From: Phycisphaerae bacterium
GTDB taxonomy: Bacteria; Planctomycetota; Phycisphaerae; Sedimentisphaerales; Anaerobacaceae
Direction: 5' to 3'
DNA length: 64,000 bases
NCBI GenBank assembly: GCA_028714255.1
Contig: JAQTMR010000010.1
Span: forward strand, 1-64,000
Shown here in pieces: positions 18,498 through 53,678 of the stretch (position 1 is its first letter; each line of letters begins with the position of its first letter). Position numbers and translations under genes: made by a program. The notes beneath the pieces were generated by a model. That model had not been told where the DNA came from and did no database searches. It saw only the letters and a list, made by a program, of their open reading frames with translations.

Positions 18498-18524
18498 CTT
18501 TTTTATTTTTGCCACAGAGTTCAC

Positions 18525-18678
18525 AGAGACCTCAGAGATAAAAAGAATTTAATTATCATTAACTTTGCTTTCTCCGTGTTAATCTGTGTTAATCCGTGTC
18601 TAATTTTTACTTTCATCTTTTTAACTCTTGCCACAGATTTTCGATTCTCTGTGTCACTCGGTGTTCTCTGTGGCTAAA
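18525..18678. repeat. Periodic repeat words between pseudopilin genes
   Basis: This spacer is made of the words 'gtgttaatctgtgttaatccgtgtc' and 'ccacag...ctctgtg', members of the roughly 10-base periodic repeat family described for 7.7 kb, 20.5 kb, 37.7 kb and 53.9 kb. Confidence 0.6.
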
Positions 18679-19542: not shown

Positions 19543-19582
19543 TGTTAATTGCTTGCCTCGGCGTAGGTCACCGAAGCCGGGT

Positions 19583-20416: not shown

Positions 20417-20728
20417 AGTTTTGCCACAGAGGCACTAAGGCACTAAGAGTTAACTATATTTATTTTTTAACTTTTTTTGCCACAGAGGTCATCCGCCTTC
20501 GCCGAGGCTTCGTCGGACAGGCAGAGAACCCTTCGACTTCGCTCAGGGCAGGCACAGAGATATACAATAAAAAAACAGTGTTAATCCGTGTTAATCCGTG
20601 TCTGCGTTTTATTTTCATTTTTTTGCCACTAAGTCGTCAAGATGGCTTACGCCAGCCCAAAGGCACCAAGGTTAAATATATCCTTTTTTTACTTTTAATT
20701 CTTTGTGACTTAGTGTCTTTGTGGCCTA
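20417..20728. repeat. Repeat-filled gap in the pseudopilin operon
   Basis: No gene is seen. It contains 'ccacagaggcactaaggcactaag' type words, a 'cgccttcgccgaggcttcgtcggacagg' element (about 20490-20520), a TTCGACTTCGCTCAGGGC element (20529-20549) and 'gtgttaatccgtgttaatccgtgtc' (20579-20603). All belong to the dispersed repeat families of this genome. Confidence 0.65.
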
Positions 20729-21415
20729 TTACCTGCTTTTTATATCATCATCCGTGCCGAAATCTCTGTCCGGCCCGGCTGAAATAACTATCGGGAAAGT
20801 CCTCGGCGAATCCTGCCCCGGCTCGCTCGATGTGGGTTCGGTTTCTTCCTCAACGTTTTCGTAATAGCTGTATCGCAGCGTCTGGCCCCACGGGTCAATC
20901 ACCCTAAACAGTGGATAAAACTTGCCGTCAATTTCAATAGTCATTTCATCGCCGTTGGCATCTTTTTGGCTTATCATGGATTTATCGATTTTATCCATTA
21001 CCTTTTTACTTTCGGGTACCCTGCCCAGGAAGAAGTACATCACCTCACTACCGGAGTAATTCGCATCGTGCGTACCACCGGCGATTGATGTGACACTTGT
21101 TACACCCTGTGCAGCTTCCATCGCAGCTTTAAGGTCACTTTCTGAAAAACCGTTGCAGTCCGGCGGAAAATCAAGCTGTGCATACGAACCCTTGAAGTTA
21201 TATCCGTAATCGCCGAATTCTCCCAGCGCCGCGTCAAGCAGTTCGAGGGTGCTTTTGATAAGTCTGTCTTTGCCCTGGGTGTCTATACGGCCGGCGATAC
21301 CGATTACCATTGCCGCCAGTATCGCGATTATCGCCGTGACAACCAGTATCTCGATAAGTGTAACGCCCGTTAGGTTCGACAAGCTCACTATAAATTTGTG
21401 TTTGCTGCTTTTCAT
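20729..21415 (-). CDS. Pseudopilin, GspG-like
   Basis: A 228-residue protein. The prepilin signal is 'LTGVTLIEILVVTAIIAILAAMVIGIAGRI', with Gly at -1 and Glu at +5. It ends with 'PIVISAGPDRDFGTDDDIKSR', the calcium-binding GspG-type ending in which 'SAGPDG..GT.DDI' is diagnostic. The leader contains 'IVSLSNLTG', whose DNA (21373-21394) matches the GGTTCGACARGCTCACYATAAA repeat also found at 7469-7493, so a mobile repeat forms part of the signal peptide. It is one of three GspG-like proteins in the cluster. Confidence 0.8.
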   Translation of the reverse strand: MKSSKHKFIVSLSNLTGVTLIEILVVTAIIAILAAMVIGIAGRIDTQGKDRLIKSTLELLDAALGEFGDYGYNFKGSYAQLDFPPDCNGFSESDLKAAMEAAQGVTSVTSIAGGTHDANYSGSEVMYFFLGRVPESKKVMDKIDKSMISQKDANGDEMTIEIDGKFYPLFRVIDPWGQTLRYSYYENVEEETEPTSSEPGQDSPRTFPIVISAGPDRDFGTDDDIKSR

Positions 21416-21478
21416 AACTTTTAGCTTATCCAGTCGCGTGCGGGGGCGGGTTCAGTCGCTGCGACGGCTCAAGTTGTT

Positions 21479-22426
21479 TCAGAAGTTGTGGATGTCGTCG
21501 CTTGTCCCATACAGGCCGTCCGGCCCCGCCGAAATCAATATGTAAGAATCCGGTCTGTGGGGCCAGGCTGTTGTTGTTATCTTGCCGTCCCTGATGCCAT
21601 AGATATTGTCTTCGCCGTAGTCGAATTTATACAAGTTTTTAGGAGGTGGCGCTAAGGAGTGGGCTTTACCTGAGCTTCCGTCAGCCGTTATGCTCTTTAA
21701 TGCAATAAGATAAAAATTGTCATAGGCGTTGTAAATCTGATTTTTGTGGTCATTAGGGTTATTAGAAACATTGGGGTCAAATATCTTGCTGGAGGTATTT
21801 GCCTTGTAATATAGAATCGGAGTCCCCGCCTTGACAGCCTTGGCGGAATTTCCCGTACTGAGGGTCATTCTCCTTACGCCGAATGCGTCACAAATCACAT
21901 ATCTATCTGCATCAAGTCCACTACCACCGATATTATCAAACAATCCATCCTCTTTACCAGTTGAGTTACCGAGCCGGAATACATTTGCGCTCGCAAGCTC
22001 CAGATAAGGGCCTTTTCTGGCTTTCAAATTTTCCTCTTTCACCACATCCGATTCAGTTCCATCGAGATATATCATATTTGCCCCAGCTTTATCTTTACCA
22101 TCTGCCCTCCAGGCCGAATCGGGATGAAATCCGAGCAGGTCCCAGCCGACAAGGGCCTCGGCGAGTGTCTCGGCACCGCAATAAGCATAGTCAATGTCTT
22201 CAGAGAGACTTGGATCGTAGCCGTGTGATGGCGGATAATCACCGAAATCGCCTTTGAAGGCCGTCAGGGCCATCTCGATGGTCGCAAACTGCGCCTTCTG
22301 CTGCGTCTCTTTGGCCATGGTTTTTACCGTCGTCAGGGCAGGGACAAGCATCGCGACCAATATGGTGATTATCGCCATGACTATTAACAGTTCTATCATT
22401 GTGAAAGCTGATTTTTTAGGCTTCAC
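21479..22426 (-). CDS. Pseudopilin with GspG-type ending
   Basis: About 315 residues, starting with GTG 22426. This is supported by GGAGG eight bases upstream; an ATG ten codons earlier would lie before this ribosome site. The prepilin signal is 'KSAFTMIELLIVMAIITILVAMLVPAL' with Ala at -1. The long mature domain ends in 'DSYILISAGPDGLYGTSDDIHNF', the GspG-type terminal motif. It is a clear paralogue of the next gene upstream: both share 'QKAQF..I..AL..F.G....YPPS', 'YCGA..L.EALVG.DL.GF.P' and 'ILYYKA.TS'. The pair is typical of planctomycete clusters with multiple major-type pseudopilins. Confidence 0.8.
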   Translation of the reverse strand: MKPKKSAFTMIELLIVMAIITILVAMLVPALTTVKTMAKETQQKAQFATIEMALTAFKGDFGDYPPSHGYDPSLSEDIDYAYCGAETLAEALVGWDLLGFHPDSAWRADGKDKAGANMIYLDGTESDVVKEENLKARKGPYLELASANVFRLGNSTGKEDGLFDNIGGSGLDADRYVICDAFGVRRMTLSTGNSAKAVKAGTPILYYKANTSSKIFDPNVSNNPNDHKNQIYNAYDNFYLIALKSITADGSSGKAHSLAPPPKNLYKFDYGEDNIYGIRDGKITTTAWPHRPDSYILISAGPDGLYGTSDDIHNF

Positions 22427-22516
22427 AGTCGTTGCCTCCTGTAAATTTATCCACATCCTGCGGATTTACCGCTATTACCCTGCTTTTCCTTCGGCTGCGC
22501 CGAGGCCAGCCGCAAG

Positions 22517-23419
22517 CTATTTGTTAAAATTAAATATGTCATCGTCCGTGCCGTATGTGCCGTCAAAACCTGCGGAAATCAGAATATAAGAATCGGGCCT
22601 GTAAGGCCTGCCTTCTTCCATGCTGATTCTGCTGTCCTTTGTGATTTCATAAAACTTTTCAGTACTTACAGTGGAATCTATGGGGTGAGTGAGTGATCCT
22701 GTTGTATCCCACGGCAGTCCCAGCTGGACTAATTTGTCGTTGTCCAGATAATTGTAAATATTATTTGCGTTCTCATTGTATGCCGTCGGCAAGTTATTTG
22801 AGTCATGTATGTAGCCTGATGTATCGGCCTTGTAGTAAAGTATCGGCATGCCGACGCCTTTTCCGGTAACCCTGTGTTTAACACGATTATAAACGTCGCA
22901 AAGAACGTACAAATCTTCATCAAGCGTATCTGTGTTTCCTGCTCCATACAGGTCTGCCATTTTGTAGGCATCGGAAGTCTGCTGCAGATACGTCTTTCTG
23001 GACTTTAAATTCTCCGCGTCGGTCGGGAAAAGAGGATCCCCGGTTGGATTATTATCGTATAGCTTTGTCTCAGTGGCCCCGTCTATTGTGCAATCAGCCC
23101 TGAAGCGTGAAAGCGGGTTAAAGCCCATCAAATCCTGTCCTACCAGGGCCTCGCAAAGCCTCATCGCTCCGCAGTATTCCTCGCCTGCCTCGTCCTGAGC
23201 GATTGAAGGCGGATAGCCGTCCCACTCGCCGCTGAAAAGCTCCAGCGCGGAATCGATGCTGTGGAACTGGGCCTTTTGCCGGACTTCTCTTGCGTACCGT
23301 TTGGCCATATTCAGAGACGGCACGAGCAGACCTATGAGAATGATGATGATACTCATAACGGTCAGCAGCTCTATAATGGTGAATGCTCTTTTTTCGAATT
23401 GTTTGGTGTTCTGTTTCAT
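22517..23419 (-). CDS. Pseudopilin with GspG-type ending
   Basis: A 300-residue paralogue of the preceding entry. The prepilin signal 'KRAFTIIELLTVMSIIIILIGLLVPSL' has Ala at -1 and Glu at +5. The mature domain ends in 'DSYILISAGFDGTYGTDDDIFNFNK'. The start ATG follows a good GGAG seven bases away. It is the first pseudopilin gene after the GspF/PilC gene in the operon. Which of the paralogues is the major pseudopilin cannot be read from the sequence. Confidence 0.8.
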   Translation of the reverse strand: MKQNTKQFEKRAFTIIELLTVMSIIIILIGLLVPSLNMAKRYAREVRQKAQFHSIDSALELFSGEWDGYPPSIAQDEAGEEYCGAMRLCEALVGQDLMGFNPLSRFRADCTIDGATETKLYDNNPTGDPLFPTDAENLKSRKTYLQQTSDAYKMADLYGAGNTDTLDEDLYVLCDVYNRVKHRVTGKGVGMPILYYKADTSGYIHDSNNLPTAYNENANNIYNYLDNDKLVQLGLPWDTTGSLTHPIDSTVSTEKFYEITKDSRISMEEGRPYRPDSYILISAGFDGTYGTDDDIFNFNK

Positions 23420-23470
23420 TTTTATTCTCCTTATTATTGCTTGATTAAGCGCCCTGTTTCGGCCCGGTTT

Positions 23471-24727
23471 TCAATTGCCGGAGCTTAGGGTCGTTATAAC
23501 TTTTATCATCGGTAAAAATATTGACAAGACGATGGTCATAGTAACAAGGCCGAGTACAATAATCATAATCGGTTCGAGCAGTGACATCAGCGAACCAACC
23601 ATCACGTCAACCTGCTCGTCGAAATTATCTGCTACCTTCAGAAGCATCTTGTCCAGGTCGCCTGTTTCCTCACCGACAGAAACCATATTGGCGATGATTA
23701 AATCAACGGTTTTGGATTGGCGTAACGGACCGGCGAAAGTATCGCCCTGCCTGATTGAATTGTGAACTTTGCCGAGCATGTTGGCATAGACCTCATTTCC
23801 CGCCGTCTCCCGTGAAGTATTAATAGCGTCCAGAATCGGTACGCCGGCGCCAATCAGCGTTCCAAGCGTCCTTGTCCACCGCGTAACGGCTACTTTGCCG
23901 CTAAGACTACCGATGACCGGAAGCTTCAGTTTGATGCTGTCCAGTACGAGTCTGCCGGTACGGAATCTCCTTATAATTTTTAATATAAAAACTATCCCAA
24001 ACGGCGCCCCTATCAAAATCGCCCAGCCATATTGGTACGCTATCCAGTCACTCATCCCGAACACAACTTGCGTTAGCGCCGGCAGCTTTGCGCCCTCGGT
24101 CATATCACTCAGCACGGTGGTAAACGTGGGTATCACTTTCCACATCAACATCAAGAGAATGGCAAATGCCGCCGACAAAACCACAAGCGGATAAACCATT
24201 GCGCTTTTGACTCGGGATTTAAGTTTCTGGTTTTTCTCCATAAAATCAGCTACGCGTGATAATATCAGGTCCAGCACGCCGCCGGTCTCACCTGCTGCGA
24301 CCATATTGACAAGCAGCCGGTCGAAGCACCGTGGAAATCTGCCAAGAGCTTCCGAGAGCGTTGCGCCGCCCTCGATGTCATCTGCTACATAACCGATGAC
24401 CCTCTTGAATGTCCCTGATTTTTGCTGCTCCTGCAGAATACGCAGTGACCTCAGGATGGGCAGTCCTGCATCCTGCAGCGTAGAAAGCTGCCTTGCGAAC
24501 TGCGTTACTAATTTGACTTTGACCTTTCCCCCTGCGCCGCGCCTCGGCTTAGGCTTCGCGCTGGTTTTTTCCGCGGCTTTTCTTCCGGCCCCATGCTCAC
24601 GAACCTTCGTGGGGAAATAACCCATATTTCGTATCTTGCTTATCGCCTCTTTCTGGCTCAGAGCTTCTATTTCATCCTTTATCCCCACGCCCTGTGAGTC
24701 CAGTGCTTCATATTGAAAAACAGGCAT
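23471..24727 (-). CDS. gspF: GspF/PilC inner-membrane platform protein
   Basis: A protein of about 418 residues with two T2SSF domains, at about residues 75-195 and 280-400. Features include 'FARQLSTLQDAGLPILRSL', 'L.RFP..F..L..NMV.AGE.GG.LD' and the second-domain counterpart 'WTRTLGTLIGAGVPILDAI...SVGEETGDLDKML'. Three membrane helices lie at about 170-195, 225-245 and 380-405. It couples the cytoplasmic ATPase to pseudopilus assembly. The start is ATG 24727, eight bases after GGAGG. An upstream GTG three codons earlier overlaps that site. Confidence 0.92.
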   Translation of the reverse strand: MPVFQYEALDSQGVGIKDEIEALSQKEAISKIRNMGYFPTKVREHGAGRKAAEKTSAKPKPRRGAGGKVKVKLVTQFARQLSTLQDAGLPILRSLRILQEQQKSGTFKRVIGYVADDIEGGATLSEALGRFPRCFDRLLVNMVAAGETGGVLDLILSRVADFMEKNQKLKSRVKSAMVYPLVVLSAAFAILLMLMWKVIPTFTTVLSDMTEGAKLPALTQVVFGMSDWIAYQYGWAILIGAPFGIVFILKIIRRFRTGRLVLDSIKLKLPVIGSLSGKVAVTRWTRTLGTLIGAGVPILDAINTSRETAGNEVYANMLGKVHNSIRQGDTFAGPLRQSKTVDLIIANMVSVGEETGDLDKMLLKVADNFDEQVDVMVGSLMSLLEPIMIIVLGLVTMTIVLSIFLPMIKVITTLSSGN

Positions 24728-24787
24728 CTTAAACACCTCCTTCAGGTTGATGGCTTAATATGAAATATCCCACAACCATAATTATTC

Positions 24788-26557
24788 TTATGCCTCCGTA
24801 GAAATCGTTTCCTTTACTACTTCCTCGATAGTGGTAATGCCGTTGTAAATGGCAGTCATGCCGTTCTCACGCAGCAGCGTCATACCGTTCTCCTGTGCCG
24901 CTTCACGCAGGAGATTTGTCGAGGCCTGATTCATAATTAACTCGCGTATCTTATCGGTGAACAGCATAATCTCATAAATAGCCGTTCGTCCTCTGTAGCC
25001 GGTGTTATTGCATTTGTTGCAGCCTCGGCCATAAAAGAAGTTCTTGCCCTTGACATCCGCCGGAGTAAGCCCCAGTTCCATCAACTGAGCTTCGTTTGGC
25101 TCGAATGGCGCCTTGCACCCTTCACATATCTTCCTGACCAGTCGCTGAGCAACAATACCTTCAAGCGTAGCAGTAATAAGAAACGGCTCAACACCCAAAT
25201 CCAAAAGTCTCGCTATTGAACTTGGAGCATCGTTTGTGTGCAGGGTAGTGAACACTATATGGCCTGTCAGAGACGACTGAGCCGCGATTTCTGCTGTTTC
25301 GAGGTCGCGGATTTCACCGACCATTATGACATCAGGGTCCTGACGCAAAATCGAACGCAGACACTTTGCAAATGTCAGTCCGATATCAGGCTTCATTTGG
25401 ACCTGAATAATACCGTCAATATCATATTCTACAGGGTCTTCGGTGGTGATTATTTTCGTCTCAATGTCGTTGATTTCGGTCAACGCCGAGTAAAGGGTGG
25501 TGGTTTTGCCGCAGCCGGTCGGACCGGTAACGATTATAATACCGTTAGGTCTGCGAATAAGCTGACGGAATACTTTAAGGTCGTATTGACTCAGTCCCAA
25601 TTTTTCCAAATCCAGGCTCAGAGTGCTTCTGTCAAGGATACGCAGCACTACGCTTTCACCGAACATTGTGGGTAGAACACTAACGCGCAAATCGACAGGC
25701 TTGCCCTGGACGGTCAGTGCTATTCGGCCGTCTTGCGGCAGCCGCCTCTCGGCGATGTCCAGGCTCGCCATAACTTTTATACGCGAGCTTAATGCCGCAG
25801 CAATGTGTCTTGGCGGGGGAACCATTTCGTAAAGCACACCGTCAATACGGTAGCGCATCTTATATTCATGTTCAAAAGGCTCAAAATGAACGTCTGATGC
25901 TTTATCACGAATGGCCTGAAGTAAAACCAGGTTCAGCAGCTTTTTGACAGGGTTCGACTCCGATAATTCCTTTAGTTCATCGAGGTCGATACTTTGGTTT
26001 CTGCCGTCAAATTCCGCAAGGAAGCTGTCCGCCTGGATTTCGCCTATTAATTCATTGATGTTTTCATCCTGCTTGGTTTCATAGTATTTGGCCAAAACAT
26101 TTTCCAGCGCATCTGAGTCGGTTATCTTCGCTGTAACTTTGGAACCCATCAATGTGCTCAAATCATCGGTTGCTCGGAAGTTATCAGCGCTGTCAAGAAC
26201 AACACACAACTCATTTTTCTCTTTGTTATATTCGATTGGCACGACGTGGTATGTCTTTGCCATTTGTGCCGGAACCTTATCGATTACCTCGGCAGGGATG
26301 TCAATATCACCCAGTTTTATATATTCCATGCCGCGCTGGGCAGCGAGTGCAATCTGCAGCTGGTCTTCATCGACTAAGCCGAGTTCAAGAAATATCTGGC
26401 CTATTCGGACAGGATCGGGCCGTTGCTTTTGAATTTTCAGGCATTCATGAACCTTCTCTCTTGTCAGGGCACCCATTTTTATAAGTATCCTGCCGAGGGT
26501 CCTGCCCCTTAATTGTTCGATGGGAGGGAGTGATTTTGCTACTTTTAGTTTTTCCAT
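24788..26557 (-). CDS. pilB: GspE/PilB-type assembly ATPase (1)
   Basis: About 589 residues from ATG 26557, which has AGGTGA upstream. An N-terminal MshEN domain (about 15-165) is followed by the ATPase core. Walker A is 'GPTGCGKTT' at 345-353, the Asp box 'ILRQDPDVIMVGEIRD' is at about 403-418, and the His box 'TGHIVFTTLHTNDA' follows. The zinc cysteines of GspE are Cys478, Cys481, Cys513 and Cys516. It powers pilus or pseudopilus extension in the cytoplasm. It lies between the PilT gene and the GspF gene, 60 bases upstream of the latter, and is the likely partner of that GspF. Confidence 0.93.
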   Translation of the reverse strand: MEKLKVAKSLPPIEQLRGRTLGRILIKMGALTREKVHECLKIQKQRPDPVRIGQIFLELGLVDEDQLQIALAAQRGMEYIKLGDIDIPAEVIDKVPAQMAKTYHVVPIEYNKEKNELCVVLDSADNFRATDDLSTLMGSKVTAKITDSDALENVLAKYYETKQDENINELIGEIQADSFLAEFDGRNQSIDLDELKELSESNPVKKLLNLVLLQAIRDKASDVHFEPFEHEYKMRYRIDGVLYEMVPPPRHIAAALSSRIKVMASLDIAERRLPQDGRIALTVQGKPVDLRVSVLPTMFGESVVLRILDRSTLSLDLEKLGLSQYDLKVFRQLIRRPNGIIIVTGPTGCGKTTTLYSALTEINDIETKIITTEDPVEYDIDGIIQVQMKPDIGLTFAKCLRSILRQDPDVIMVGEIRDLETAEIAAQSSLTGHIVFTTLHTNDAPSSIARLLDLGVEPFLITATLEGIVAQRLVRKICEGCKAPFEPNEAQLMELGLTPADVKGKNFFYGRGCNKCNNTGYRGRTAIYEIMLFTDKIRELIMNQASTNLLREAAQENGMTLLRENGMTAIYNGITTIEEVVKETISTEA

Positions 26558-26795
26558 TTGGTTTTCACCTCTAACCAAAGTTAACCTTACATCTACAAGA
26601 ATTATATCACATTAAAACCTTCTTGGCAAGTAAATTACAAATTGGACATTTAGTTGTTAGGACTTATGGGTCGGCTATTCTTGCCTTTTTACAGCTATTT
26701 ATCGGATAGAAAAGCCCCCTATTTTAACCTAAAAAAATACCAGCCAGATTTGTTTCTGTGCTGGTATTTCATAAAATCGGCTAATTTTGTTCCAA

Positions 26796-27935
26796 CTATG
26801 TCCTTAAAATCTCCATATCATCCTCGCCCTCCTCTGCCACTGGTTGTTTCTTTCCTTTTACCTTGCCTAACTTGGCCAGAGCCTTATCCGCCAATGCTCC
26901 CGGCTGGCGGGCCTTGTTCAGCATTTCTTCCTTGGTAATCTTGCCGGTTTCATAGAGCACCCAAAGATGTTCATCGAGAAGCTGCATACCTAATTTCCTG
27001 CCTGTTTGGATGCTCGAATCGATTCGGTAGGTCTTGTTTTCACGGATAAGATTAGCAATCGCAGGGGTAACAACCATAAACTCATAGGCGGCGACTCTTC
27101 CTCTGCCGGTAGCCAGAGGACAAAGTTCCTGGCTGAGGACCGCCATCAGATTGGAGCTTAACTGGGTGCGAATCTGCTCCTGCTGGTTCACCGGGAATAC
27201 GTCGATAATTCTGGTAATTGTTCCTGCTGCGCTTATTGTATGCAGCGTACTAAAGACAAGGTGGCCGGTCTCGGCAGCTCTAATAGCCGCCTCGATAGTT
27301 TCCAGGTCTCGCAGCTCACCTACCAAAATCACGTCCGGGTCCTGTCTCAAAACACGCCTTAGTGCTTCACCGAAGCTCGGAACATCGACACCAACTTCTC
27401 GTTGATTAATAATAGATTTTTTATGCTTGTGATAATATTCTATCGGTTCTTCGATTGTTACAATATGGCGGTCGAAGTGTTCGTTAATATAGTTCACCAT
27501 ACAAGCTAAGGTAGTCGTTTTGCCGCTGCCGGTCGGGCCTGTAACCAAAAACATACCTCTTGGCCGTCGGCACAAAGCAGAGCAAATCTTGGGTAAACCT
27601 ACCTCTTCGAATGACATAATTTTAGTTGGAATAAGGCGTAATACTATCGAAATATCGCCTTTTTGACGAAAAACAGATACTCTAAATCTTGCCATATCGC
27701 CATAGGCAAAACCAAAGTCGGTTCCTCCCTCTTCCTGAATCTCCTGCTGATTTCGCTCAGGAGCTATGCTTTTCATAAGTGCCACGGTATCGTCTGCATC
27801 GAGGACTTTGGTCTCAAGGGATCTGAGTTGGCCGTCTATTCTCAATACCGGTGCTCGACCGGTAACCAGATGTATATCAGAGCCTCTTTGCGTGACACAT
27901 GCCTGTAGGAGGCGGTCCATATTAACTGTTGCCAT
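26796..27935 (-). CDS. pilT: PilT-type retraction ATPase
   Basis: A 379-residue hexameric ATPase of the PilT family. It lacks the MshEN domain and zinc cysteines of the PilB type. Walker A is 'GPTGSGKTT' at 133-141, and 'RQDPDVILVGELRDLET' and 'AETGHLVFSTLHT' follow. The C-terminal 60 residues are charged and unconserved. PilT disassembles type IV pili, so its presence argues that the cluster makes a retractable pilus rather than a pure type II secretion pseudopilus. It is placed between the two PilB-like genes. Confidence 0.92.
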   Translation of the reverse strand: MATVNMDRLLQACVTQRGSDIHLVTGRAPVLRIDGQLRSLETKVLDADDTVALMKSIAPERNQQEIQEEGGTDFGFAYGDMARFRVSVFRQKGDISIVLRLIPTKIMSFEEVGLPKICSALCRRPRGMFLVTGPTGSGKTTTLACMVNYINEHFDRHIVTIEEPIEYYHKHKKSIINQREVGVDVPSFGEALRRVLRQDPDVILVGELRDLETIEAAIRAAETGHLVFSTLHTISAAGTITRIIDVFPVNQQEQIRTQLSSNLMAVLSQELCPLATGRGRVAAYEFMVVTPAIANLIRENKTYRIDSSIQTGRKLGMQLLDEHLWVLYETGKITKEEMLNKARQPGALADKALAKLGKVKGKKQPVAEEGEDDMEILRT

Positions 27936-27966
27936 TTTTACAGAATCCTTAATAAGCTGTTTTTGT

Positions 27967-29703
27967 TTATTCCACCGCGACGTCGTCGGCTTGCGCTATA
28001 CCCGCTACTTCTTCGGGAGTAGTCAGACCTTTGAATATCTTGGCCTTGCCGTCATCCCTTAGCGTTCGCATCCCGGCTGCTATGCAGGCCTTTCGTAAAT
28101 CTGCCGTAGCGGCCTTTTCAAAGGCCAGTTCCCTTATCTTGCTGTTTAGTTCTACCATCTCGAATACTGCAATTCGGCCTTTGTAGCCGGTACTCTGACA
28201 CTGGCTGCAGCCGGCACCTTTATAGATGGGATTTTTTTTGATATCCTCAGGAGTAATACCAACCAGTCGTAAATAATGTGGGTCGGGATTTTCATTAATT
28301 ACTTTGCACTTACTGCAAATGACTCTTACAAGCCTTTGTGCCATAATAGCTTGAATAGAGCTGGCTACGAGGAATGGCTTGACACCCATATCTATCAGAC
28401 GCGTAATTGCGCTGGGGGCATCGTTCGTGTGCAAAGTGCTGAAAACCAGGTGTCCCGTAAGAGCAGCCTGGATGGCGGTATCCGCAACGATACCGTCTCG
28501 AATTTCTCCGACGAGTATAATATTCGGAGCTTGTCGCAGCATTGCCCTGAGAATCTTGTCGAATGTCAGCTCGATTTCATCTCTTATTTGACACTGATTC
28601 ATCCCGTCAAAGTTGTATTCCACGGGGTCTTCCGCGGTAATAATTTTCTTGTCAGGCCTGTTAAGCTCCTGAAGTGCCGCATACAGAGTCGTGGTTTTTC
28701 CGCTTCCGGTCGGCCCTGTAACCAAAAATATACCGTTGGGCCTTTTAATTATTCTTACAAATCGTTCGTAATCATACTGTTCGAAACCGAGCGACTGAAT
28801 ACCGATATTGACCGAATCACGCCGCAAAATTCGCAATACTACGCTTTCTCCGTGGTTGCCCGGCAGAGCGGAAACACGAAAATCGACGTCATTATCTCCA
28901 ATCATACGTTTAATACGGCCGTCCTGTGGCAATCTTCTTTCTGCAATATCCATACCGGATAGAATTTTGAAGCGGGTCATTATGGGCGCTTGCATATTCT
29001 TGGGGATATTATCTTTTTCCAGACAAACGCCGTCAACGCGGTATCTTACGCGCACCCTGTCTGCCATCGGCTCGATATGAATATCGCTGGCACGCATATG
29101 ATATGCGTTATCTATTATCAAATTTACCAGCTTGACAATCGGGCTGTCATCACCTTCGCCGGTGTCACCGGCGCGGAGGGCTTCTGCCTGTAACTCTCGG
29201 CTGGCATCGGCAAGCTCGGCGGCTGTTGCGTCGATGCTGTGTCTCAACTTGTCATCTTCCTCACTTCTTGCTTCTTCCACTGTCCCCTGGATATACGACT
29301 TGATTTTTGAGGGGTTTGCCAGACAGTAATCCAGTTCCTTATTCAAGCGAAACCGAAGTGTGTCCATCATGTCTAAATTTAACGGGTCACTGATAATTAC
29401 TTTCAATCTGCCGTCATTCATACCAAGAGGCAGGATGCTATGCCTTTTTATAAGGTCTTCCGGGATAAGCTTTATTACATCAGGCGGAATAGCGGTTTTA
29501 TCCAGGTTCACATACTCCAGCCCGAATTGTTTGGCAAGTGCCTTGGTAAGTGTTTCTTCGTCCACCAGGCCCAACTCGAGCAATATCTGGCCAAGCCGTT
29601 TATTACTCGTTTTAGAAGTCTTGATTGCATCAATAAGAGGCTGCTTCTTCACCACCCCGGCTTTGTAGAGTATTTCACCTAAATGTCTGCGTTTTTCTGC
29701 CAT
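27967..29703 (-). CDS. pilB: GspE/PilB-type assembly ATPase (2)
   Basis: About 578 residues from ATG 29703. An MshEN domain covers about 5-135, Walker A 'GPTGSGKTT' lies at about 330-338, and zinc-type CxxC pairs occur in 'ICSKCK' and 'GCSQCQ'. In the Asp box the usual R-Q-D-P-D is R-Q-A-P-N, followed by an intact 'IILVGEIRD'. It is a diverged paralogue of the ATPase at 24788. Two extension ATPases with one GspF suggest alternative motors or a shared platform. It overlaps nothing and is separated by 31 bases from pilT. Confidence 0.9.
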   Translation of the reverse strand: MAEKRRHLGEILYKAGVVKKQPLIDAIKTSKTSNKRLGQILLELGLVDEETLTKALAKQFGLEYVNLDKTAIPPDVIKLIPEDLIKRHSILPLGMNDGRLKVIISDPLNLDMMDTLRFRLNKELDYCLANPSKIKSYIQGTVEEARSEEDDKLRHSIDATAAELADASRELQAEALRAGDTGEGDDSPIVKLVNLIIDNAYHMRASDIHIEPMADRVRVRYRVDGVCLEKDNIPKNMQAPIMTRFKILSGMDIAERRLPQDGRIKRMIGDNDVDFRVSALPGNHGESVVLRILRRDSVNIGIQSLGFEQYDYERFVRIIKRPNGIFLVTGPTGSGKTTTLYAALQELNRPDKKIITAEDPVEYNFDGMNQCQIRDEIELTFDKILRAMLRQAPNIILVGEIRDGIVADTAIQAALTGHLVFSTLHTNDAPSAITRLIDMGVKPFLVASSIQAIMAQRLVRVICSKCKVINENPDPHYLRLVGITPEDIKKNPIYKGAGCSQCQSTGYKGRIAVFEMVELNSKIRELAFEKAATADLRKACIAAGMRTLRDDGKAKIFKGLTTPEEVAGIAQADDVAVE

Positions 29704-29765
29704 ATAAACCCAATACTGGTTGCTAAACCCTCTATTATACCACAATCATTATCCGGACGCAACCG

Positions 29766-46667: not shown

Positions 46668-46921
46668 CCCGCTGAACCAAACATCTAAAATCTGCTCCGT
46701 ATTCTTGTGTTGCTTAGATACTTTTTTCCACTGCTCACCTGCTCTACTGTTCTACTTTCTCCGCTTCGGTCGGCTTACGGAAATTTATCCTGTGGACAAC
46801 AGCAAACCACTTTTCAATTCTTTATTCTCAACTCTCTACTCTCAACTTACTATTTTCTCCGCCTTTGGCGGCTGGCCTCCGGCAGCAACAGCGCATCTGA
46901 ACAATTGGCCCGACTATCGAA

Positions 46922-47959
46922 TCATTTCGTTTCGACATTCGTATCTGGCAAAGACTGCTTTTCCTTCTTAGCCTCTTTTTCTAATTCTCTCTGAAAATAA
47001 GTCAAATGTTCCTTATTCGTCTTGTCCTTTGCCTCATCTATCATGTCCTGCAATTTGCCAGAAGCGTTTCGATTCCCAAAAGATTCAACGTTTGTTTTAA
47101 TCAAAAGATTCCACAGCTTTTCATCGTACCTCTTATAATTGTCGAGGGCGTTAACTAAGGCCGTTTTAACTTCTGATGTATCCAACCCATATTGGTGATA
47201 GCGATCGAAAGATACTATTATCGCCTGTTGCAATTTAATATCTACTTGTGAATCTGAAAACAGTTCAAGTTCACTATTTATAGATTTACGTACCTCCAAT
47301 AAAATATTGCCATTTATTTTCTTGCTTTCAGCGGTCATCTTTATTTGTCCTGATTGCACAGCATCCTTGAGCTTTTGGAAATCATAATCGTTGTTGTCTA
47401 TAACTTTCCTTGCCTCTGTATCGTTCATAATATTTTTTTGATAAGCATACCTCAATAGCAACGTAGATGATCCAATTGCCTTACTTCTGAGGATAGTTTG
47501 CTCTGAGTGATCCGAAAAAATGTCACAGGTTACTTTTGCTACTGTGAGACTTTGTTTGATACTGAGTTTTTCCTGCCAAGAACCGCTCAGCATATGCATC
47601 AATGCTCTTCGCCAAAAAGGCGATTGTGATTTGTTTTTAAATTCAGCTATCAACGGTGAAATATCCTCAAGACCATTGGTTTTTTGTGGATAATACTCAT
47701 AAAAGAAACTTAAAGCCATTGATCCCACCATTTCCCAATCTTCGGGTTGAGTAACTTCCTGAAGTTCCTCACTGCATTGTCTTGCCGCAATTATGAGTTC
47801 ATCAGCACTAAGTTTGGCAAAATAATCTCTATAAGCATTACTGTCTGCTTGCTCATTCAGCTTCTTGATTTCTTGCCAATAATTTCTTTGCGACGAAGCT
47901 TCTACAGAACATACAAAAACAAATATTAATACCGCCAATACCAATTTAGATGTTTTCAT
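46922..47959 (-). CDS. Exported helical partner protein, copy A (candidate immunity protein)
   Basis: A 345-residue protein with an N-terminal signal peptide ending near 'VEA'. The rest is mostly helical and matches no family I know. It is a diverged paralogue of the gene at 49220. Both carry 'EYLDSLTAEQLIEAGRQCSDE'-type starts ('DYFAKLSADELIIAARQCSEE' here), 'FFYEYYPQKTNGLEDISPLI' versus 'FFIGYYPKTAGLGDLRPIF', and end in 'KKQSLPDxNVET'. The ATG is two bases after the stop of the upstream gene, and its GGAGG lies inside that gene's last codons, so the two are translationally linked. An exported partner is what would be expected of immunity against a periplasm-acting enzyme; that role is a hypothesis. 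Confidence 0.7.
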   Translation of the reverse strand: MKTSKLVLAVLIFVFVCSVEASSQRNYWQEIKKLNEQADSNAYRDYFAKLSADELIIAARQCSEELQEVTQPEDWEMVGSMALSFFYEYYPQKTNGLEDISPLIAEFKNKSQSPFWRRALMHMLSGSWQEKLSIKQSLTVAKVTCDIFSDHSEQTILRSKAIGSSTLLLRYAYQKNIMNDTEARKVIDNNDYDFQKLKDAVQSGQIKMTAESKKINGNILLEVRKSINSELELFSDSQVDIKLQQAIIVSFDRYHQYGLDTSEVKTALVNALDNYKRYDEKLWNLLIKTNVESFGNRNASGKLQDMIDEAKDKTNKEHLTYFQRELEKEAKKEKQSLPDTNVETK

Positions 47960-47961
47960 GT

Positions 47962-49050
47962 TTAATTACCTCCTTTATTACCTATAGGTTGACATAAATC
48001 CTGCTTAGAAAACCTGGTCATTGCCTCAACAGGCGTAACCTTGCCACATTGGGTAGCTGGCATAAGCGTGTCATACCAGTCTCCAACTGTACCGTCAAAG
48101 TCATCGTGCTCTTCAAGATTATCTTTCGCATCATTGCTACCGGCACTCCAAGTGCCTGAAAAACCGTTATAACTTAAAATATCTGTCTGGTCTGAAATAT
48201 CATAATTATAACTAGTTCCTTCGTAGCTTCGCTCCATAGCCCATACATTAATGCCATTTAGTTCGTAGCATACTTCTACAAGTCCATCACATCGTAGACT
48301 GCTAATATTGGATAGATTGCCATTCCAATTAACTGGTAACAGCGCATCATTCCACTCATAATCTAAAGGCGCACGAGCAACCAACTGTTTAGCCGTTTTG
48401 ATGATAGCTAATCTTTTGGCATAGGTGATGTCTGAAATATTTGTATAACAACCATAGCATGGATATCCGGGGTAGTTGGTCATAGTTGTTAAACTATGGT
48501 CGTCAGTGGGGCCTGACATTTCAATAATTTTAAAATTATCCGCATTATCCAAATCATCCCTTGTACAACTGCCTAAATACTTATAAATCAACGCTGCATG
48601 GCCTCGCTCTTTTTGAGGAACACCTGTTTTGTTAATGTCCCGATACACCGCATTTCCGAGATTGAGCATCACAACGGTCATTTTAACTTTATCCGATGTC
48701 GTAACACTTCCGTTTATGTGTCTCAATTCGAGCCCCATATCTCTTTCCGCGCTGCTGCGCCCGACCCCTTCAACCCACAATGTCGAAGGCGGAGTCGTCG
48801 TCGCCAAATCCCATGTGAGCGTTGTCTGCTCAGCCGATTTATTCTGGTCCTGCCACAACTTAATACTGCCTGTCTTTATAAGCTCCAGCGTCCCTTCATT
48901 TAACTGCTCCGCCGACAACTCAATCTTGGCAAGGTCGTCATCAGGGCCGGTTCCGCTCTCGTATAAATCCGGCGTATCATCGCCGTTATCATCATCGCAG
49001 TTTACCAGCAAATATGCACCAACATTTTCTTCGTCGCCCTCTGAAACCAT
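47962..49050 (-). CDS. Orphan C-terminal cassette of the large secreted protein, diverged catalytic-type domain
   Basis: A 362-residue frame lacking a signal peptide. Residues 1-131 are almost identical, also in DNA (48652-49065 versus 50901-51314, about seven mismatches by eye), to the linker region of the protein ending at 50286. After 'VVMLNLGN' the sequences diverge sharply but remain related: 'GHAALIYKY' versus 'GHSGVVVEY', 'EMSGP' versus 'EMPGP', 'IVKTAK', and 'LRCDGLVEVCYE' versus 'LRCDGLTEVCYE'. The first ATG corresponds to an internal Met of the long protein, with no good ribosome site, so it is probably not expressed as an exported protein. It may serve as a donor for recombination. 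Confidence 0.7.
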   Translation of the reverse strand: MVSEGDEENVGAYLLVNCDDDNGDDTPDLYESGTGPDDDLAKIELSAEQLNEGTLELIKTGSIKLWQDQNKSAEQTTLTWDLATTTPPSTLWVEGVGRSSAERDMGLELRHINGSVTTSDKVKMTVVMLNLGNAVYRDINKTGVPQKERGHAALIYKYLGSCTRDDLDNADNFKIIEMSGPTDDHSLTTMTNYPGYPCYGCYTNISDITYAKRLAIIKTAKQLVARAPLDYEWNDALLPVNWNGNLSNISSLRCDGLVEVCYELNGINVWAMERSYEGTSYNYDISDQTDILSYNGFSGTWSAGSNDAKDNLEEHDDFDGTVGDWYDTLMPATQCGKVTPVEAMTRFSKQDLCQPIGNKGGN

Positions 49051-49065
49051 TGCTCCCGAACTTCC

Positions 49066-49219
49066 GGTGGACTCCGTCCCCCTTGACTGCCCTAACGCTG
49101 TTGCTGCCTGCTGTTCGGATACTATTTTACCCGTATGCCTTCGGCATACTAACTGTTCGTTTCCTCATTCCGGCCTCCGGCAGCAACAGCGCGTCTGGAT
49201 AACTAACCCGACTATCGAA
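49066..49219. repeat. Cassette junction with 13-bp inverted repeat
   Basis: The perfect 13-bp inverted repeat CGCTGTTGCTGCC (49096-49108) / GGCAGCAACAGCG (49179-49191) brackets about 70 bases, including the hairpin GTATGCC-ttc-GGCATAC (49132-49148). The right arm and the following ~70 bases recur at 46871-46960, where the other cassette ends. This marks the border between the two copies. Confidence 0.65.
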
Positions 49220-50260
49220 TTATCTCGTTTCGACATTCGGATCTGGCAAAGACTGTTTTTTTCTTTCGGCCTCTTTTTTCAGGCATCGTTTAATAGATTT
49301 AAGTTCTGATTGAAGCGGCACTTTTATATGATCGTCCGTCTCGTTTTTCATTTTCAGTTCTAACTTATCCGCCATACTCTTTGCTATTTGTTCGCCATCC
49401 GGCATTTGCAGTTTCTCTATCCCTATCTGTGCAAGTAATCGCCATGTTTTTACATCGTATTTTTCATAATTTCTCACCGCGTTGATAAGGGTATTTTCTA
49501 CTTCGGCTCTATTTTCGCTTGGTTTGTCGAGAAGGTCACGCAACAACGCAAAAGAGACCCTTTGCAATTCAGGATTCAAATTCGGCTCACCGGATATATT
49601 TATCAGCCGATTTAAAAATCTCGTGTAATACTCGGTTATCTCTTGTGACTTCTTCTCCTGATTGCCCTTATTTGCGTCGTTTGCATCATTAACCGAAGAC
49701 ACATTTTTCATATTTCGATTCTCGATTTCTCCAAGTGTAGCTTTAGTTGTATAAAGTGCCTCATTGACTACTCGGTAGTAAACATTTTTTCTCTCAAGAA
49801 TCTTATCTATATTATTTATCACTTCACGTAATTGGTTATCCGATAGTTTTTGAGACCAATCAACCCCAAAGGCGTGAATTAATGTACTTCGCCACATGTC
49901 AGTTTGGTTTGTGTCTTCTATGTCCCTGAAAATAGGTCGAAGGTCTCCAAGACCGGCAGTCTTGGGATAATAGCCAATAAAAAAACTAATCACAAATCCG
50001 GTGCCTTCGGCAAAGCCATTTTTTTGAAACGATGCATTACCCTCATCGGAACATTGTCTTCCTGCCTCAATCAGTTGCTCAGCAGTAAGAGAATCCAAAT
50101 ATTCGGTAAACTCCTTGCTTATCCGATCGTTTTCCGGAATACCTTCTGCCTTGTCATAAGCAATTATATATTCTTTTATTTTCTCCCAATATGGTTCTTC
50201 TGCTTTTGTGACAGTTACACTCATGCACAGCATTATAGTTATGTATACTATGTTCTTCAT
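49220..50260 (-). CDS. Exported helical partner protein, copy B (candidate immunity protein)
   Basis: A 346-residue protein with signal peptide (cleavage near 'TKA'). Helical and unassigned; paralogue of the protein at 46922 with about one third of positions matching by eye and a nearly identical C-terminus 'RKKQSLPDPNVETR'. It starts 25 bases after the large secreted protein gene, with its own GGAG seven bases before the ATG. The consistent pairing of each C-terminal domain with one of these proteins suggests a functional pair. Peptide-binding or chaperone roles are equally possible. Confidence 0.7.
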   Translation of the reverse strand: MKNIVYITIMLCMSVTVTKAEEPYWEKIKEYIIAYDKAEGIPENDRISKEFTEYLDSLTAEQLIEAGRQCSDEGNASFQKNGFAEGTGFVISFFIGYYPKTAGLGDLRPIFRDIEDTNQTDMWRSTLIHAFGVDWSQKLSDNQLREVINNIDKILERKNVYYRVVNEALYTTKATLGEIENRNMKNVSSVNDANDANKGNQEKKSQEITEYYTRFLNRLINISGEPNLNPELQRVSFALLRDLLDKPSENRAEVENTLINAVRNYEKYDVKTWRLLAQIGIEKLQMPDGEQIAKSMADKLELKMKNETDDHIKVPLQSELKSIKRCLKKEAERKKQSLPDPNVETR

Positions 50261-50285
50261 TATAGGTCTCCTTTTCCCGTAAAAA

Positions 50286-53200
50286 TTAGTTTCCGCCTGT
50301 ATGACCGATTGGCTGACACAAATTTAGCTGATAAAGTGTTGTCTGCCAGTAAGTCCCACGATAAGCCTCGAAATCCCCATGTCCGCATTGGGTTGCAGGT
50401 GCCATATGTTGCTTCCAAGACAAAGGAACAAACTCATTGTGTTCTTCCTGATATGAATCAACACGGATATCATAATGGGTGCTTCCATCGACAATTTTTC
50501 CCCAGACCATTTTACCATTAATTTCATAGCAAACTTCTGTCAGGCCATCACATCTAAGATAATCTATATCAGTTATGGTGTTATTCCAATTGGAAGGTAA
50601 TAGTACTTTAATGAATGTATAGTTGACACGTTGGTCACGTAATGCCTTTGCCGTTTTGACAATTCGTAATCGGTTGGTGTATTCCAAACCCCACGAATAG
50701 CAGCCAAAAGACGGCAGGTGAGGAATATCCGTAAATGTACCCAGAGTAACTTCATCGGGCCCAGGCATTTCTACCACCCAAAATTTGCTGGAGTCGTTAA
50801 AATCGCTCGGTGTGCATTCACCAGTATATTCAACAACGACGCCCGAATGCCCAACCGACAAATTTCCAATCCCGAATAAGTCAAGTGCTCGGCAAACGAT
50901 GTTTCCAAGATTAATCATCACAACGGTCATTTTAACCTTATCCGATGTTGTGACACTTCCGTTTATGTGTCTCAATTCGAGCCCCATATCTCTTTCCGCG
51001 CTGCTGCGCCCGACCCCTTCAACCCACAATGTCGAAGGCGGAGTCGTCGTCGCCAAATCCCAGGTGAGCGTTGTCTGCTCAGCCGATTTATTCTGGTCCT
51101 GCCACAACTTAATACTGCCTGTCTTTATAAGTTCCAGCGTCCCTTCATTTAACTGCTCCGCCGACAACTCAATCTTGGCAAGGTCGTCATCAGGGCCGGT
51201 TCCGCTCTCGTATAAATCCGGCGTATCATCGCCGTTATCATCATCGCAGTTTACCAGCAAATATGCACCAACATTTTCTTCGTCGCCCTCTGAAACCATT
51301 GCTCCCGAACTTCCATTATTCCCGCCATTATAAATCTTCAAATCAGGCCTTGTAAAATCTACATACGCCGTTTTGCCTGCTGCATAAAAGGGTTTGGTTA
51401 CGCTATCGTCCCCATGGGTTCCAAGCATAGAAGGGTTATACGGGTCATCTATGGTCATTACAACCCCGACAGGCAGGCCAGCAGCTTCTACTTTGGCCTC
51501 GTAATCGTAATCCGCCCCTTCTGGCCAAATTGTTCCTAAATGGACAACCTTAACTTCATAACGCTTGCCCGCCCGAAATTGATTGTAGGTATTGGTTGTC
51601 ACCACGCCGAACACAGGCCCCTGATGATGTATAACAAATGGCGATGTCCCGCCTTCTTCATAAACGACCATGTCATATCGCTCCGATTCACTGCTGCTCC
51701 AGTCGCCCACCGTCAATCTCAACTCGCAAATCTCATCCGCAGACGGAGCCTCACCGTTATCAGAGGCGCTTGCCGGGTAGCTGCCCTGCGTTGCCTCAGC
51801 CCCGTCGTTTGTGCCGTCACTATCAGTATCGGGCTGGGTGGGATTGGTGCTGTATATCAACTCTTTTAGCAAAGTCAAACCATCACCGTCAGTGTCGCTG
51901 TAGATATTGTCCATCACAAGAGGGTTAAGGCCATATCCAATCTCCCAGCTATCCGACAGCAAATCACCATCACTATCAAATTCTCCGGGCTCGGTACCGC
52001 CAACAACCTCGTTCCAGTCTGAAATCCCATCTCCGTCACTATCAGTCTTGAGAGGGTCTGCCCCATAGGTATTAACTTCATCCCCATCGCTCAACCCATC
52101 GTTGTCGGTATCGCTGTCCCACGGATCAGCACCTAACTGAGATTCTTCAAGATTAGTAAGACCATCTCCCGTGGGATAATTTTCAAAGTCATAACCAGCC
52201 CAGCCGCCATCATAATCAGGGTCAAAATAGGTATGGAAAGATAAATCCCAGTGGTCAGCCTCCCAGCCGTCAGGCATACCATCACCGTCGCTGTCCTGAT
52301 TATTAGGATTAGTCCCACAAGGTATTTCACCCCAGACGTGACCGTTGTAACCGGCGCCGTTCTTTCCGGAACTAACGCCCTCAGGATAATCTTCAACGGG
52401 TACTACGTCGTGCCATCCGTCAACTAATCTGTCATCATCACTGTCTATTTTGAGGGGATTAGTAAAATATGTATAAATTTCTTCCTCGTCATCCAATCCA
52501 TCACCATCTGTATCCCCGTCAGTAGGATTGGTCCCGGCATTATATTCTTGAGCATTCGTCAATTGGTCCATATCAGCATCATAACCACCGTCACTGGAAA
52601 TTCTTGGGTCTATAAACCGAGAGTAGGCAATTGTTTGATACTCAACCTCCCAGCCGTCTAACCTTCCATCACCGTCGGTGTCATTTGAATCAGCATTTAA
52701 GTCACAATCATCCCAATCATGACCCGCCCACGGGTATGGATGATAGTCGCTACAGTTACCGTTGTAACAGAGCTCGACATAATCATTTACTCCGTCATCA
52801 TCAGTATCAGGATTATTAGGGTCAAAACCCCAACTGGCTTCAACCCCGTCATTTATGCTGTCGCCATCGGTATCAGGATTAAGTGGCTTCGCACCATAGC
52901 TGGCTTCGTCTCCGTCCGTTAAGCCGTCATCGTCGCTGTCGCTATCCCACAAATCAGTACCGGCAGCGTATTCGTCGGCATTATTTAATCCATCACTATC
53001 AGTATCGCCGCTGCTGTCATTAATTGTTGGATTCAGGCCATTCTCAATTTCCCAGTTGTCTGGCATCCCATCAGAATCTGTATCGGCATCGTTCGGGTTA
53101 GTAACATAACCGTAAGTCCCGTTTATTTCGTCATAGTCGGAAAGACCATCCCCATCTGTATCCGGCAAAACTGTGATGGATATGGTTGCTGTATTGCTTT

Positions 53201-53678
53201 CATATTTGCCATCATAAGCAAAAAATGTAAAACTATCATTGCCGTCATAATCTGGCAATGAAGTATAAGTTGCCGTATTTCCGTCAAGCGTAAGAGTCCC
53301 GTTCGACGGATAGGCCATTGTGAAATATGCAAGCGTTTCGTCATCTTCATCACTGGCTTCGAGTGTAATTGTCACGGATTTGGCCTGAGTTACTGAAACA
53401 CTGTTGCCCTCAGCTACCGGAGGAAAAAATATTTCTTCCAGCCAATACCAGCTAAATTCCTCCAGGTCATTTACGTCAACAATTCCATTATCGTCGAGGT
53501 CGCCGTCAAGGCCGGCTCCCGACTTCTGCCAATTCTCCGCCAGCATCGCAAAATCAGCGAAATCCACGAATTCGTCACCATTCAGGTCAGGCGACCAAAA
53601 AGGCTGTGTAGCCGTTGCCAAACTGCAAACCCACAAACACAAAACCCCCATTGCTGAAAAAAGTCTTGTCCCTCGCAT
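50286..53678 (-). CDS. Large secreted protein: dockerin, beta-sandwich, thrombospondin type-3 repeats and C-terminal permuted-papain-like domain
   Basis: A 1130-residue exported protein. Order: signal peptide (to about 23); dockerin-like pair 'FVDFADFAMLAENWQKSG' and 'GIVDVNDLEEFSWYWL' (30-85); a cadherin/Big_9-like sandwich 'TLTLDGNTATYTSLPDYDGNDSFTFFAYDG' (90-165); about a dozen calcium-binding TSP3 repeats 'DTDGDGLSDYDE' (170-640); a second sandwich domain (650-800); a constant linker (820-945); and a variable C-terminal domain (950-1130). The last has 'VGHSGVVVEY', 'VEMPGPDE' and 'LRCDGLTEVCYE', in the His-then-Cys order of permuted papain-fold hydrolases (YiiX/NlpC-P60-like). It is followed by the partner gene at 49220 and an orphan copy of its C-terminal part. 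Confidence 0.82.
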   Translation of the reverse strand: MRGTRLFSAMGVLCLWVCSLATATQPFWSPDLNGDEFVDFADFAMLAENWQKSGAGLDGDLDDNGIVDVNDLEEFSWYWLEEIFFPPVAEGNSVSVTQAKSVTITLEASDEDDETLAYFTMAYPSNGTLTLDGNTATYTSLPDYDGNDSFTFFAYDGKYESNTATISITVLPDTDGDGLSDYDEINGTYGYVTNPNDADTDSDGMPDNWEIENGLNPTINDSSGDTDSDGLNNADEYAAGTDLWDSDSDDDGLTDGDEASYGAKPLNPDTDGDSINDGVEASWGFDPNNPDTDDDGVNDYVELCYNGNCSDYHPYPWAGHDWDDCDLNADSNDTDGDGRLDGWEVEYQTIAYSRFIDPRISSDGGYDADMDQLTNAQEYNAGTNPTDGDTDGDGLDDEEEIYTYFTNPLKIDSDDDRLVDGWHDVVPVEDYPEGVSSGKNGAGYNGHVWGEIPCGTNPNNQDSDGDGMPDGWEADHWDLSFHTYFDPDYDGGWAGYDFENYPTGDGLTNLEESQLGADPWDSDTDNDGLSDGDEVNTYGADPLKTDSDGDGISDWNEVVGGTEPGEFDSDGDLLSDSWEIGYGLNPLVMDNIYSDTDGDGLTLLKELIYSTNPTQPDTDSDGTNDGAEATQGSYPASASDNGEAPSADEICELRLTVGDWSSSESERYDMVVYEEGGTSPFVIHHQGPVFGVVTTNTYNQFRAGKRYEVKVVHLGTIWPEGADYDYEAKVEAAGLPVGVVMTIDDPYNPSMLGTHGDDSVTKPFYAAGKTAYVDFTRPDLKIYNGGNNGSSGAMVSEGDEENVGAYLLVNCDDDNGDDTPDLYESGTGPDDDLAKIELSAEQLNEGTLELIKTGSIKLWQDQNKSAEQTTLTWDLATTTPPSTLWVEGVGRSSAERDMGLELRHINGSVTTSDKVKMTVVMINLGNIVCRALDLFGIGNLSVGHSGVVVEYTGECTPSDFNDSSKFWVVEMPGPDEVTLGTFTDIPHLPSFGCYSWGLEYTNRLRIVKTAKALRDQRVNYTFIKVLLPSNWNNTITDIDYLRCDGLTEVCYEINGKMVWGKIVDGSTHYDIRVDSYQEEHNEFVPLSWKQHMAPATQCGHGDFEAYRGTYWQTTLYQLNLCQPIGHTGGN

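Follow-up and report, generated by a model that had tools for sequence, protein, structure and literature searches.

Introduction

Polymorphic toxin systems combine a constant export region with a variable C-terminal enzyme and a downstream partner gene, and both HEAT-repeat immunity proteins and NlpC/P60 toxins are listed among them (PMC3482391). At the main and orphan Rhs loci of Salmonella, a near-identical stretch of 522 bp (95% identity) lies before the tip, the orphan is without initiation and export signals, and each tip has its own partner gene (PMC3967940). Here we analyze a locus with this kind of layout in a Phycisphaerae bacterium of the Planctomycetota (GenBank assembly GCA_028714255.1). 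The window, meaning the whole stretch of DNA that was analyzed, is the first 64,000 nucleotides of contig JAQTMR010000010.1, and the locus consists of two units on its minus strand, from 53678 to 46922, with every gene in that orientation. Unit 1 encodes a large secreted protein in which a repetitive stalk and a linker precede a C-terminal enzyme domain, the tip, and this gene is followed by one for an exported partner. Unit 2 is an orphan linker and tip with a second partner.

As in Salmonella, a near-identical stretch (98% over 413 bp here) lies before the tip, the second unit is without stalk and signal peptide, and there is one partner gene per tip. Unlike the Rhs loci, the window protein has no RHS repeats but a PAD_M-like linker and a TSP3 stalk, its partners are exported, and toxicity of its tips is a prediction. 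Nor does Pfam find in the carrier the filamentous hemagglutinin/TPS domain or MafB-N domain of contact-dependent inhibition (CDI) and MafB systems proper. A TSP3 or dockerin carrier is likewise absent from the survey of polymorphic toxin systems by Zhang 2012 (PMC3482391).

A polymorphic-toxin-like organization, as predicted from the genes and their domains, is well supported. We read the whole as a polymorphic-toxin-like locus in which an exchangeable enzyme sits on an exported carrier and a cognate partner acts as immunity protein or inhibitor, and we place this reading marginally above even. A Sec-exported carrier, made of the TSP3 stalk and the PAD_M-like linker of calcium-binding type, would display the exchangeable enzyme; export is suggested by a signal peptide recognized by eye, and display on a stalk by the TSP3 repeats. 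The tip would probably hydrolyze or transfer lipid acyl groups, and the exported helical-repeat partner would bind its own tip and keep it harmless in the periplasm of the producer. Our verdict is that a kind of system already described appears here on a new carrier, which possibly represents the wider family behind the architecture of protein-arginine deiminase (PAD).

Exchange of tip and partner through the linker

The features of the locus are listed here; signal peptides and the dockerin-like segment were assigned by eye.

50286 to 53678, minus strand: unit 1 full-length secreted protein, 1130 aa (open reading frame [ORF]; signal peptide, dockerin-like segment, Big_9, 11 TSP3 repeats, linker, enzyme tip)
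49220 to 50260, minus strand: partner 1, 346 aa, predicted exported all-helical repeat protein (ORF and structure model)
47962 to 49050, minus strand: unit 2 orphan linker and tip ORF, 362 aa, without stalk or signal peptide
46922 to 47959, minus strand: partner 2, 345 aa, predicted exported helical partner
50907 to 51344, minus strand: unit 1 linker, PAD_M-like domain, the constant domain of the carrier (profile comparison)
50902 to 51314, minus strand: linker repeat copy 1 (sequence comparison)
48653 to 49065, minus strand: linker repeat copy 2 (sequence comparison)
50289 to 50936, minus strand: unit 1 tip, predicted permuted NlpC/P60 (YiiX/C92-like) fold; invariant His codon 50847-50849, Cys codon 50550-50552
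47965 to 48687, minus strand: unit 2 tip, same fold family as tip 1; His codon 48598-48600, Cys codon 48289-48291
49172 to 49278, minus strand: 3′ block copy 1, end of the partner gene plus 49 nt past its stop
46874 to 46980, minus strand: 3′ block copy 2
49097 to 49190, no strand assigned: 95-bp dispersed palindromic intergenic repeat, at the junction of units 1 and 2

The two linker copies match at 405 of 413 nucleotides. Seven codons are affected by the eight differences between them; six of the differences are synonymous, and the other two share one Ile/Leu codon, the sole amino-acid change. To either side of the repeat, windows of 30 nt agree at just 5 to 18 positions. At one edge identity falls straight to that of the tips, which are 45% identical, and at the other the repeat gives way to unrelated intergenic DNA; the partners are only 28% identical to each other. 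The ORF of unit 2 begins within the linker. In a tree of nine tips, the unit 2 tip pairs with a Nitrospirota tip (support 97/98), and a topology with the two window tips as sisters is rejected by the approximately unbiased (AU) test (p=0.0006). The linkers of the two units, in contrast, are identical at 121 of 121 amino acids, while those of relatives are 41 to 53% identical. Because sisterhood of the tips is rejected though the linkers are identical, linker and tip differ in history, and this discordance shows that cassettes have been exchanged by recombination through the linker. The eight differences between the linker copies and the unique junction argue against an assembly artifact. Base composition is also uneven along the locus, with GC fractions of 0.48 to 0.50 in stalk and linker, 0.40 to 0.43 in the tips, and 0.37 to 0.39 in the partners.

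We considered a simpler history, a plain tandem duplication with fast divergence, in which gene conversion kept the linkers alike and unit 2 is a decaying remnant. The dispersed repeat at the junction could have promoted such a duplication, and a second ORF without stalk and signal peptide would fit a remnant. However, the tips are not sisters, unit 2 keeps the His, the Cys, and the other invariant residues of the tip family, and the linker differences are nearly all synonymous, all of which makes this history highly improbable. In the reading we prefer, incoming cassettes of tip and partner would recombine via the linker and push the old linker, tip, and partner downstream as a silent orphan, as in Rhs. 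From its missing stalk and signal peptide, unit 2 is predicted to be such a silent orphan.

An earlier note on this DNA had described a near-identical linker, an abrupt switch to a diverged C-terminal domain, a second unit starting inside the linker and followed by a diverged paralogue of the partner, and mosaicism of linker and tip with an orphan cassette; the comparisons above bear out each of these. It had also proposed that the far end of the unit is conserved. There is indeed a 3′ block (46874-46980 versus 49172-49278) that is 86% identical and covers the partner gene end and about 49 nt after the stop, but its outer edge coincides with the end of the dispersed 95-bp repeat, which makes it a weaker constant flank than the note had supposed. 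The block scores no better than shuffles as a folded RNA or terminator. The 95-bp palindromic repeat is intergenic, has inverted ends (GGCAGCAACAGCG), and is present in about 25 copies across the genome; it also separates the paralogous genes on contig C1, described below. This genome-wide dispersal rules out the block or the element as a cassette-specific recombination site.

Tips and partners in a family of linker-bearing proteins

The linker is a domain in its own right (alignment A6) without a name in Pfam or NCBIfam. Of 161 genomes from the order, 14 encode it, as do 44 of 397 from the class; most of these relatives are metagenome assemblies. Proteins that carry it are large and secreted and end in many types of C-terminal domain: the YiiX type, DUF7689, HExxHxxxxxH metallopeptidases (five loci), a PAD catalytic domain, a weakly matched lipase-like domain (L132), and several unassigned types. 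For L131, L144, and L147, the C-terminal part had no enzyme match in the PDB. Among linker proteins with a C terminus of at least 80 aa, 27 of 32 have a same-strand gene no more than 250 nt downstream, and three of the remaining five run off the contig. Many of these downstream genes begin, by eye, like those for exported proteins.

We then asked whether partners follow tips. Across 26 linker loci there are 18 tip clusters. Seven partner homologies were detected, and all seven fall within a tip type, with none among 308 cross-type pairs; no arrangement in 20,000 label shuffles reaches this, a count to be taken as a guide and not as a probability, given that the loci are phylogenetically non-independent. 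By type, the detected pairs are 5 of 6 for YiiX, 1 of 1 for type D, and 1 of 10 for the metallopeptidases. Two matched pairs lie outside this table: the partners of L134 and L138 match at E 1.5e-36, and L102 matches a locus on contig C1 of the window's own genome (about 416.5-424.5 kb) in both tip (3e-9) and partner (5e-83). On C1 the stalk of the carrier is dockerin-like, and no linker can be recognized. As an association, then, the partner is tip-specific, and this matching is the strong evidence, more so than gene adjacency.

The expectation in the earlier note of a matching partner for each tip type thus holds up, least firmly for the metallopeptidases, in which only one of ten pairs is detectable. 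Its expectation of one stalk bearing varied C termini needs to be moved: the variety sits on the linker domain, and the TSP3/dockerin stalk, which the note had taken as the constant part, itself varies between loci. What stays constant is the PAD_M-like linker.

A PT-HINT domain scores above its cutoff in the linker protein L138 and RHS repeats are present in L140; Pfam finds neither in the window protein. Both are common in polymorphic toxin systems and are not required for them.

These proteins might instead be hydrolases of modular build, secreted or at the surface, that serve in nutrition or in the processing of a matrix, with catalytic modules swapped on a calcium-binding scaffold, accessory partners, and no antagonism. 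The TSP3, Big_9, and dockerin-like stalk and the metallopeptidase, lipase-like, and deiminase types are all common in extracellular enzymes. Yet an orphan cassette, partner arrays, tip-matched partners, HINT and RHS carriers, and patchy strain-level presence typify conflict systems, and we regard the hydrolase explanation as quite improbable. From the survey it seems that a widespread polymorphic effector layout is in use in one class of Planctomycetota, built on a carrier domain absent from the systems in the literature searched.

Fold and predicted chemistry of the tip

Pfam, NCBIfam, and PADLOC searches with the four window proteins returned stalk domains only. In the 1130-aa protein, the Pfam matches are to Big_9, Cadherin, and TSP3 models alone, which amounts to one Big_9 domain and 11 TSP3 repeats. 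The tips are matched by no model in Pfam or NCBIfam, the curated C92 model PF05708 included. PDB sequence searches with tip and partner profiles gave nothing useful, and Foldseek on the tip model gave only weak matches.

The structure model of the tip (pLDDT 78) was more informative. With VIA-align it matches YiiX (Z 11.7) and a Bacillus C92 enzyme (3KW0; Z 9.5), followed by the effector TseH (Z 7.0) and HRASLS3 (Z 6.6). The tip has the His-before-Cys order of the permuted NlpC/P60 (YiiX/C92) superfamily, and in 23 sequences of its family from many phyla the invariant residues are G11, H30, R128, C129, D130, G131, E134, C136, and E138. Within this predicted fold, we treat the tip as a separate new clade.

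The YiiX fold binds fatty acid (PMC3142127), and Tox-Act1 and TseH are antibacterial effectors of the permuted NlpC/P60 fold with phospholipase activity (PMC12994826). The tip shares with these proteins both the modeled fold and the order of His and Cys. In contrast to the tip, Tox-Act1 and TseH are delivered by a type VI secretion system, and the tip has no sequence-level match to them. The modeled fold and the conserved His and Cys point to lipid (acyl) chemistry over peptidoglycan cleavage. The earlier note had envisaged a peptide- or peptidoglycan-cleaving tip, which we do not favor given that the YiiX-like permuted fold acts on lipids in the literature (PMC12994826, PMC3142127). A lipid substrate, a dependence on Ca2+, and an antagonistic role would complete the predicted picture, and the locus offers a pair of tip and partner with predicted catalytic Cys and His.

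Relatives of the tip were absent from plasmid and phage collections. Because a search of an even draw of 392 genomes of the phylum matched the window alone, the tip is rare though the linker is not.

Role of the partner

Partner 1 is modeled as all-helical, with 15 helices and no strand (pLDDT 82.5). No HEAT model in Pfam scores above its cutoff, Foldseek gives generic helical repeats only, and the likeness of the window partners to the HEAT group is weak (hhalign probability 88%, 11% identity). Across the tip family, 20 of 24 loci have an exported helical or HEAT-repeat protein, adjoining the tip gene upstream or downstream or fused to its N terminus; these regions were judged by eye, with Pfam where a HEAT model matched. 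Fusions of a HEAT-type N-terminal region to a YiiX-like domain occur in several phyla, and separate neighbor genes occur in Clostridia, Verrucomicrobia, Hydrogenedentota, and others. The enzyme and a helical partner are functionally tied, in a pattern that is by itself silent on whether the partner inhibits or helps. What emerges is an enzyme clade, without a name until now, that goes together with helical partners in many phyla.

That the partner neutralizes the tip seems to us about evenly poised. The main rival is that the locus makes a secreted enzyme with a dedicated exported chaperone or pro-region: the helical partner would fold the tip or hold back its activity up to the time of secretion, in the manner of a lipase foldase or a protease propeptide, and the pair may be split or fused. 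Helical or HEAT domains beside or fused to the tip in 20 of 24 loci, in many phyla and in both gene orders, are what this explanation would lead one to expect.

Several findings weigh against the toxin-and-immunity reading, some of them by favoring this rival. Where tips of the family are not on this carrier, they are joined in one chain with HEAT-repeat domains (L031, L032, L035, L037, L038, L039, L041), and in L031 the fused domain shares 54.5% identity, over 343 aa, with the partner that L034 encodes separately. This equivalence of split and fused forms is a better fit to a pro-region or chaperone than to an antidote. The partners of type D tips resemble the N-domain of the chaperone SurA (SurA_N). 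Within the window family, the trees of tip and partner show no clear agreement: a grouping of partner 2 with the L027 partner is rejected (p=0.015), and one with L027 and L029 is allowed (p=0.215). Among the metallopeptidases, 9 of 10 partner pairs have no detectable homology. Same-strand adjacency is in itself common in bacteria, and because operons are common it is weak evidence when taken alone. Finally, the window protein has no known toxin-delivery domain.

Fusion in cis is not disqualifying for immunity, because fusions of the Imm35 immunity domain to papain-like toxins are recorded and HEAT-repeat immunity proteins are listed (Zhang 2012, PMC3482391). Moreover, a foldase would hardly explain tandem arrays of diverged partners behind a single tip, of which there are three partners in L104, four on C1, and two in L129. 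Nor would it readily explain partner genes without a tip, which are present in three genomes (G095, G110, and G104). The earlier note had named partners found without the large protein as evidence against its proposal; they exist, and they are not decisive, as orphan immunity genes would look alike. Partners also diverge faster than tips (28% versus 45% identity). On balance we think the chaperone or pro-region explanation unlikely, though it is the most serious of the alternatives.

The arrays themselves have further features. In L104 (4115-5857), three tandem exported paralogues, 40 to 80% identical, lie behind one linker protein whose tip is possibly papain-like (WNCHGST...LQHSATC). In L156 (G000:C1 416500-424500), in the window's own genome, a dockerin-like protein with a Cys-rich, L102-like tip is followed by four tandem exported paralogues that are nearly identical over their C-terminal 120 residues and variable in their N-terminal parts.

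Resemblance of the linker to the PAD middle domain

Compared with human PAD4, the profile of the linker aligns to the middle domain (residues 150-257), where the calcium-binding motif NCDRDN lies, with an E value of 0.0034. On the window linker alone, the Pfam PAD_M model gives a weak match below its cutoff (E 0.09), so likeness of sequence does not by itself establish the identity. A locus of the same class, L145 (3617-8251), helps here: linker copies precede a complete PAD catalytic domain (E 9.5e-62 to human PAD1), and an exported gene lies 26 nt downstream. L145 removes much of the doubt over the PAD_M-like identity of the linker. The likeness of the window protein to PAD (PAD_M plus PAD_C) lies in the linker, whose profile aligns with PAD4 at the NCDxDN motif, and L145 in addition bears the PAD catalytic domain; the window protein differs in having a YiiX-like tip in place of PAD_C.

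PAD_C is reported to be under the control of calcium bound by PAD_M, and PAD_M to be divergent in bacteria that lie outside the cyanobacterial clade (PMC8826395). Calcium may gate the tip through the linker in an analogous way. We offer a broader idea tentatively, as possible though doubtful: the linker would be the mark of a family of secreted bacterial proteins, large and so far undescribed, that combine a PAD_M-like calcium-binding domain with exchangeable enzymes matched to exported partners. PAD, which animals acquired later, would be one of the payloads, and its calcium-controlled two-domain architecture would derive from a modular toxin-like effector system. The analysis links the PAD middle domain to an exchangeable family of extracellular enzymes.

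Surroundings of the locus

The locus is missing at both flanks in the two congeners examined. The left limit of synteny with the congeners is 46573 and the right limit 54404, and in G009 the flanks are on different contigs. The closest relative of partner 1 in G025 is 65% identical; directly upstream of this gene, on G025:C44, is a 3.8-kb run of N (L074 3767-7609), which itself comes after a gene for a TPR protein. A TPR-protein gene also lies ahead of the linker protein in L019, L022, L024, and L104, where L074 has the N run, and this gene may be part of the system. Elsewhere in the window, positions 17646-29745 hold a run of pseudopilin-like, GspF-like, and GspE/PilT-like genes (by ORF starts only) of the kind found in type II secretion or type IV pili, which is a possible export route.
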